Shown: positions 49,487 through 50,590 of the stretch, one piece after another
How the letters are laid out: every line of letters begins with the position of its first letter
Numbering within the stretch: position 1 is the first letter of the stretch
Source: Bacillota bacterium
GTDB taxonomy: Bacteria > Bacillota > Dehalobacteriia > UBA4068 > UBA4997
Reading direction: 5' to 3'
Length of the DNA stretch: 51,430 nucleotides
Assembly: GCA_017397935.1 (NCBI GenBank)
Contig: JAFQHN010000010.1
Span: 1 to 51,430 of the forward strand
Notes under the pieces: generated by a model
The model's database searches: none
Told to the model about the DNA's origin: nothing
Seen by the model: only the letters and a program-made list of their open reading frames with translations
Program-made: the position numbers and the translations under genes

Positions 49487-49535
49487 GCCTGCTTGTGTCA
49501 TCACCGCCGATGACATTGAGCAGGTTTTGTTTTTA
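49487..49535 (+). terminator. Two-part intrinsic terminator
   Basis: CCTGCT (49488-49493) pairs with AGCAGG (49519-49524) and an inner TGTCATC pairs with GATGACA, followed by TTTTGTTTTTATTT. Confidence 0.85.
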
Positions 49536-49627
49536 TTTGTGCGGGGCGGCGGACAGGCACCAACCCACCATACGGCCATAAAATGTAATATGAATACTCC
49601 GTAGAGAGAAAAAGGAGGTCCATAATT

Positions 49628-50470
49628 ATGGCCAGAAAACTGTGTATGTGCAAGGATAAGCCGTTTTATCACGATTGCGAGTGCCAAAGCGGCAATTTGG
49701 GGGTAGAGGATATTTTTGATGATGTGATGGTGCGGGCCAGAGAGGCTGAGCTGTTCTACTGCTGTATGGTGGAGAAGGCCCAATGTGAGGTCGATAAAGA
49801 GATGTTCCGCCGTTTCAGCCTGGATGAACGCCGCCATTATGCCCTCTTACAGCAGATTTTGCGAGAGCTGACCTGCGAGTGTTATTGCGTGGGCGAGGTT
49901 TGCATTGAGGAGCCGCAGGGTTTCTGCAAGGCCATTAAGGTGGCCATCTATAACGAGATGCAGATGAGCAACGATTATGAGAATTTGGCCTGCTACCTGT
50001 GTGATATGGCCCAGCGCGAGATTTTGCTCAGTATGATTCAGGATTCGCGTAACCACGCCGAGCGTCTGGCAGAGTTGTACCAGTTTGCCCAGGATTGTGC
50101 CTGCCGTAATGTGGCCGGTGAGAACACCGAAAGCTGCGGCTGCAATAACAACTGCTGCTGCAACTGCTGCTGTATGCCCAACTGCGGTTGCTGGATGCCG
50201 GGCGGCGAGAACTGCGTGTGCGGCTGCATCCCCTTTATGATGCCGTGCTGTCCTCCCACCGATACCGGTGCTGCTGCCGAGGAGGAAGAAGAGGATTGCG
50301 GCTGCAAGATGTACTGCTGCCTGGATGATGACACCTGTCCCTGCGTTTGCGGGCATGAGATGAATATGAGAAAGAGCGGCCGAAACCCTGCCAAGGGCTG
50401 TGTAGCAGGGGCAGAGGAAAGTGTCTGCCGCAAGTGCAAGCCGGTAAGCAGCGGTTGGGGTTACCGTTAA
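49628..50470 (+). CDS. Cysteine-rich ferritin-like protein of unknown function
   Basis: 280 residues with 41 cysteines by my count (about 15%). Residues about 27-156 look like a rubrerythrin/ferritin-like four-helix bundle: E39/E41 on helix one, E67-x2-H70 (DERRHYALL) on helix two, E110 on helix three and D139...H143 (DSRNHAERL) on helix four; the second ExxH is degenerate. CMC and CEC pairs start the protein. From C157 on there are 27 cysteines in blocks such as CGCNNNCCCNCCC, CVCGC and CPCVCG, with an acidic EEEEED stretch. AAGGAGG precedes the ATG. Possible roles are metal storage, metallothionein-like binding or a disulfide-linked coat protein. Single gene with its own terminator. Confidence 0.8.
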   Translation: MARKLCMCKDKPFYHDCECQSGNLGVEDIFDDVMVRAREAELFYCCMVEKAQCEVDKEMFRRFSLDERRHYALLQQILRELTCECYCVGEVCIEEPQGFCKAIKVAIYNEMQMSNDYENLACYLCDMAQREILLSMIQDSRNHAERLAELYQFAQDCACRNVAGENTESCGCNNNCCCNCCCMPNCGCWMPGGENCVCGCIPFMMPCCPPTDTGAAAEEEEEDCGCKMYCCLDDDTCPCVCGHEMNMRKSGRNPAKGCVAGAEESVCRKCKPVSSGWGYR

Positions 50471-50515: not shown

Positions 50516-50554
50516 TTGGTGTATTATATGTGAGTGTGGGCGTGGATAAAACCG

Positions 50555-50590
50555 CAAAAGCGAGGCTGTATGTGGCCTCGCTTTTGTTGT
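50555..50590. terminator. Bidirectional terminator
   Basis: Perfect 12-pair stem CAAAAGCGAGGC (50555-50566)/GCCTCGCTTTTG (50575-50586) between the Cys-rich gene (+) and the XRE gene (-). Confidence 0.85.

Follow-up and report, generated by a model that had tools for sequence, protein, structure and literature searches.

YhjR is a ferritin-like protein of the rubrerythrin type. In B. subtilis it is a sigma-K-regulated component of the inner spore coat (PMC9484137). Spore proteins of a different make-up include CsxA, a cysteine-rich, self-assembling protein with 25 cysteines whose disassembly needs boiling in 2 M DTT (PMC7333573), and CdeC, in which cysteine amounts to 9% of the residues (PMC6101409). 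The sigma-E and sigma-K promoters of C. difficile have a common −10 element and are distinguished by the −35 element, ATA versus AC (PMC3789822), and the optimal spacing for sigma-K of B. subtilis is 15 ± 1 (PMC517825). The protein described here would unite a familiar fold with a familiar type of spore protein, and this combination is new. In the literature searched there was no paper on a fusion of a ferritin-like and a cysteine-rich spore coat protein, which is not proof of absence.

The window (the whole stretch of 51,430 nucleotides that was analysed) contains an open reading frame of 280 codons on the + strand that starts with ATG, is preceded by an AGGAGG ribosome site and specifies 41 cysteines, exactly the count given in the preliminary description of this DNA. 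The frame is real: orthologues throughout the genus with a conserved core rule out a chance frame or a frame artefact. Cysteine makes up 14.6% of the protein; for 36 other window genes the figure is 1.3%, a difference with a binomial P of about 1e-29. The gene is present in one copy in its own genome (1.59 Mb, 28 contigs), which also encodes sigK (above cut-off) and spoIVA. The close relatives are found in metagenome genomes that carry the labels Candidatus Avidehalobacter gallistercoris, Peptococcaceae bacterium or Bacillota bacterium; several of these have gut-type names, e.g. goat cecum. The features of the locus are the following:

49488..49524, + strand: hairpin CCTGCT...AGCAGG followed by a T run, likely terminator of the upstream gene (found by eye; not returned by a simple hairpin scan)
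49557..49561, + strand: sigma-K-like −35 element GCACC (conserved across the genus and also in further families of the order; spacer varies)
49577..49585, + strand: sigma-K-like −10 element CATAAAATG, 15 nt after the −35 element (consensus CATAnnnTA, one mismatch)
49589..49608, + strand: conserved leader TATGAATACTCCGTAGAGAG (near-invariant in the genus; single copy in the genome)
49613..49618, + strand: ribosome site AGGAGG (kept across the genus)
49628..50470, + strand: gene for the Cys-rich ferritin-like protein, 280 residues (ATG start; genus orthologues)
49628..49696, + strand: N-terminal arm, residues 1-23, 4 Cys (sequence and predicted model)
49697..50101, + strand: ferritin-type four-helix bundle, residues 24-158, with ligand positions A37, E67, H70, E110, S140 and H143 (Pfam, predicted model, Foldseek, alignment)
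50111..50467, + strand: Cys-rich tail, residues 162-280, 25 Cys, predicted disordered (predicted model, alignment, genome searches)
50554..50587, + strand: terminator-like hairpin 3' of the gene (hairpin scan)

With a likely terminator before it and a terminator-like hairpin after it, the gene looks monocistronic. In the alignment of upstream regions of the genus, ACA[A/G]GCACC and [C/A]ATAnnnT[A/G] are kept 15 nt apart with a variable intervening spacer sequence, and several sister species have the −10 consensus CATAnnnTA exactly. Judged by sequence, the AC of the −35 element and its 15-nt distance from the −10 element fit sigma-K promoters and do not fit sigma-E promoters. The pattern AC, 15-18 nt, [CA]ATANNNT[AG] is found upstream of 15 of the 27 family genes, whose start codons were assigned by rule, versus 10 of 247 control genes, and shuffling of the family regions predicts 0.78 occurrences, although these counts overstate the independent evidence because the regions are related. 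When one row per genus is taken, a stringent sigma-K-like pattern occurs in 7 of 14 genera versus about 0.015 expected. The preliminary description had noticed the likeness of 49577-49585 to a sigma-K −10 box and graded it as weak; the likeness holds, and the grading should be raised, since the comparison supports it strongly.

Several observations weigh against placing the protein in a spore layer. The −10 element of the window carries its one mismatch, most members of family f2 of the order miss the −35 element, and yabG (TIGR02855) has no match in any of the 35 order genomes (G000-G034), though most of them have spoIVA and sigK; yabG was therefore unusable as a promoter control. Matches to the strict sigma-K consensus in the own genome, 12 versus 7 in a reversed control, are near chance. 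As a separate observation, the sigK matches fall in two pieces at G012:C1:79634-86142, at G010:C4:34675-37679 and on G034 contigs C43/C146, the pieces being kilobases apart in G012 and G010, an arrangement in which a skin-like element could be interrupting the gene. As for the other upstream elements, the ACAAG beside the −35 element is, we presume, reminiscent of the SpoIIID motif; the search for that motif in papers gave no match, hence no SpoIIID site is claimed. The leader, located between the −10 element and the ribosome site, may form a small CTC...GAG hairpin; the idea that other genes share it was discarded on its single genome match.

The promoter call being made from sequence, the protein might be thought vegetative and without a link to the spore, for instance a redox buffer or a gut-stress protein. 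The conservation of the promoter, together with the lack of any good candidate for a sigma-70-type promoter ahead of the gene on the + strand, renders this reading decidedly unlikely. A sigma-K-type promoter in a sigK-bearing, spore-forming host is what would be expected of a coat or exosporium protein.

The four-helix bundle proposed in the preliminary description is borne out by structure prediction, Pfam and Foldseek. Helices are predicted at residues 26-50, 54-82, 99-121 and 127-156 with pLDDT mostly >90, and residues 169-280 have pLDDT <50. The Pfam Rubrerythrin profile PF02915 matches the protein at E=2e-7 (31.9 bits, cut-off 22.8) and, at E values no higher than 0.1, 23 of the 24 family members, and Foldseek of the predicted model retrieves ferritins and bacterioferritins at probability 1.00 with target-normalised TM up to 0.77. 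The PF02915 match and the predicted fold place the protein in the ferritin-like superfamily; no characterised close homologue was found. Three further signals would suit cargo of an encapsulin compartment: a weak EncB_fam match (E=0.034, 14.1 bits, NCBIfam cut-off 90), EncFtn-like Pfam hits, also weak, in 5 of the 24 members and an encapsulated-ferritin chain in the PDB profile search. With a score below cut-off and no match to a shell gene (PF04454) in the genome, an encapsulated ferritin (EncFtn/EncB) was rejected, and the cargo reading is extremely improbable.

The gene is present in eight of nine genus genomes; its true absence from the ninth, G002, is disfavoured, since the adjacent birA is unmatched there as well and an assembly gap is likely. 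By profile search, 31 of the 35 order genomes have a relative, and neighbourhood clustering, with gene names read from the sequences, puts it next to birA, coaX, dusB and, frequently, bioY in several of the order's families. Thus, on sequence grounds the orthologues across the order appear to share one birA-coaX-dusB locus, and this common neighbourhood makes many tail-less forms orthologous in position and not in sequence alone.

The diiron ligands, taken as helix-A Glu, ExxH, helix-C Glu and ExxH, were located in a multiple alignment whose identity beyond the genus is 20-46% and which includes some long-branched rows. In the window genus they read A-E/Q-H-E-S-H: Ala37 and Ser140 replace two glutamates in every sampled species, and a third position, 67, is Gln in four genus genomes. 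The ExxH E67-H70 of the preliminary description is good in the window protein but not throughout the genus; the degenerate motif D139-H143 given there was out of register, the aligned Glu position being Ser140 and the helix-A ligand Glu position being Ala37. As aligned, the genus protein lacks the full ligand set of a functional diiron ferritin or rubrerythrin. The ferritin side of the metal store once suggested is weakened, because two ligands are gone genus-wide and a third in some species.

An active diiron protein, whose bundle would oxidise iron or reduce peroxide while the tail served as anchor or electron donor, could draw on the retained E67, H70, E110 and H143 of the window protein, on the PF02915 match and on the ligand-complete ancestral set. 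The changes of helix-A Glu to Ala and helix-D Glu to Ser in all sampled genus species, the Gln at position 67 and a separate canonical rubrerythrin gene at another site of the same genome make it very unlikely, and a full diiron enzyme was rejected on the lost ligands.

The distribution of the ligands allows the history of the site to be followed. Every tree row from outside the order has the full set E-E-H-E-E-H, as have six order members, the sister genus among them; family f4 reads E-A-H-E-K-H and most of family f2 reads Q-E/D-H-K-Q-H. The maximum-likelihood tree requires the set to switch three times between intact and broken, and the well-supported branches already force three switches. 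On this alignment the ligand-complete state is ancestral and the diiron site is lost at least three times within the order. Since the sister genus has complete ligands and no long tail, site loss and tail gain map to one branch. The orthologues in f2 and f4 (L012, L013, L016-L030) lost ligands independently without gaining a long tail.

Cysteines are not distributed as first described. Of the 14 assigned to the bundle, four (6, 8, 17 and 19) are located in the N-terminal arm, and most others are in loops or at helix ends. The bundle span holds 12 cysteines, nine of them in loops and three no more than five residues from a helix end, as judged by secondary structure and not by coordinates. On the same secondary-structure grounds, a Csp3-type copper bundle was rejected, the cysteines not being in helix cores. 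The tail carries its 25 cysteines within 119 residues in CC, CCC and CxC blocks. Across seven sampled species 26 of the 41 cysteines are invariant, 13 of these 26 being common to the sister genus, and the total per genus orthologue read is 39-50, tail cysteines beyond the conserved set being gained or lost between species. Elsewhere in the order the counts are 1-6 in most of f2 and 11-19 in f3, f4, f5 and the sister genus, and the 16 loci inspected outside the order have 0-6 cysteines and the full ligand set. In a phylum-wide sample of 398 genomes the full-length match is confined to this genus; no genome searched outside it has the Cys-rich tail. Evolution is faster in the tail than in the core (dN 0.05-0.49 versus 0.006-0.18), with selection on the tail poorly measured because its dS is mostly saturated.

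The same tail gives rise to the main rival reading, a late-made, spore-associated metal-thiolate protein whose chief function would be to hold a soft metal, such as Zn or Cu(I), in its Cys-rich arms after the manner of a metallothionein, and so to store, buffer or detoxify that metal within the spore envelope. The density and blocks of the tail cysteines are in its favour, and the share of cysteine in the tail seems as metallothionein-like as it is spore-layer-protein-like; furthermore, a Csp3 copper store is active in B. subtilis sporulation and apparently co-operonic with the coat gene yhjR (PMC9484137). However, the non-conserved tail cysteines vary between species, the adjoining genes, read by sequence, showed none for metal transport or resistance, and such a cysteine content is already explained by Cys-rich spore layer proteins. 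We regard this reading as unlikely, although metal binding can coexist with a disulfide scaffold. A sporulation-specific hybrid, in which the ferritin-type scaffold would have swapped iron chemistry for thiolate arms to give a coat of metal, Zn or Cu for instance, and not a disulfide mesh, is quite unlikely.

Taking the evidence together, the protein is probably a late mother-cell protein of the spore surface layers (coat or exosporium), with diiron ferritin-like ancestry and turned into a disulfide-linked scaffold. The upstream DNA suggests that the gene is switched on late in sporulation, hence the protein probably helps to build the outer shell, linked by disulfides, and does not serve as an iron store; a ferritin-type iron store role is unlikely. 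In the model we propose, the gene, as a transcription unit of its own, would be read by sigma-K RNA polymerase in late sporulation. The ferritin-type bundle, which goes back to a diiron ferritin-like family that seems itself spore-protein-like and which has no complete diiron site in this genus, would act as the folded module. The cysteines at the bundle ends and in the flexible tail would make intra- and intermolecular disulfides, by which the protein would be cross-linked into the coat or exosporium. YhjR, CsxA and CdeC/CdeM are precedents for this model, and the ligand loss throughout the sampled genus beside an intact sister genus, the cysteines in loops and near helix ends and the 26 invariant cysteines speak for it. 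The spore coat idea of the preliminary description thus gains indirect support from the conserved sigma-K-like promoter, from sigK and spoIVA and from similar promoters in many relatives in the phylum. If so, this locus would offer a traceable case of an iron-binding fold becoming an apparently structural spore protein, and would add a new domain architecture to the Cys-rich spore proteins. It also points to a broad Bacillota family of ferritin-like proteins with sigma-K-like promoters, a possible spore role of which is directly testable.

Comparison with the known systems shows where the protein stands. With YhjR, compared by description, it has in common the link to sporulation and a sigma-K-type promoter, and it differs by the 120-residue Cys-rich tail and the incomplete diiron site. 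The tail-less family members (L087, L088, L089, L107-L122), short Bacillota ferritin-like proteins that would be candidate spore proteins, have a homologous bundle and in many cases a sigma-K-like promoter, but they keep the full ligand set, have 0-6 cysteines and no Cys-rich tail, and often possess Tyr/Pro-rich N-termini. Ferritin, bacterioferritin and rubrerythrin share the four-helix bundle, from which the genus protein departs by the loss of two or three diiron ligands and the addition of the tail. The exosporium proteins CsxA, CdeC and CdeM of Clostridium and C. difficile likewise have a high cysteine content and are proposed to build disulfide-linked spore layers (PMC7333573, PMC6101409), yet CdeC and CdeM have no conserved domain and about 9% Cys, whereas the genus protein has a ferritin-type bundle and more cysteine. 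The Csp3 copper storage proteins, one of which acts in B. subtilis sporulation (PMC9484137), also combine a four-helix bundle with many cysteines, which line the core and are not placed, as here, at the bundle ends and in the arms. Finally, CC, CCC and CxC blocks are common to metallothioneins and to the tail, but in the genus protein they are joined to a folded bundle of 135 residues.
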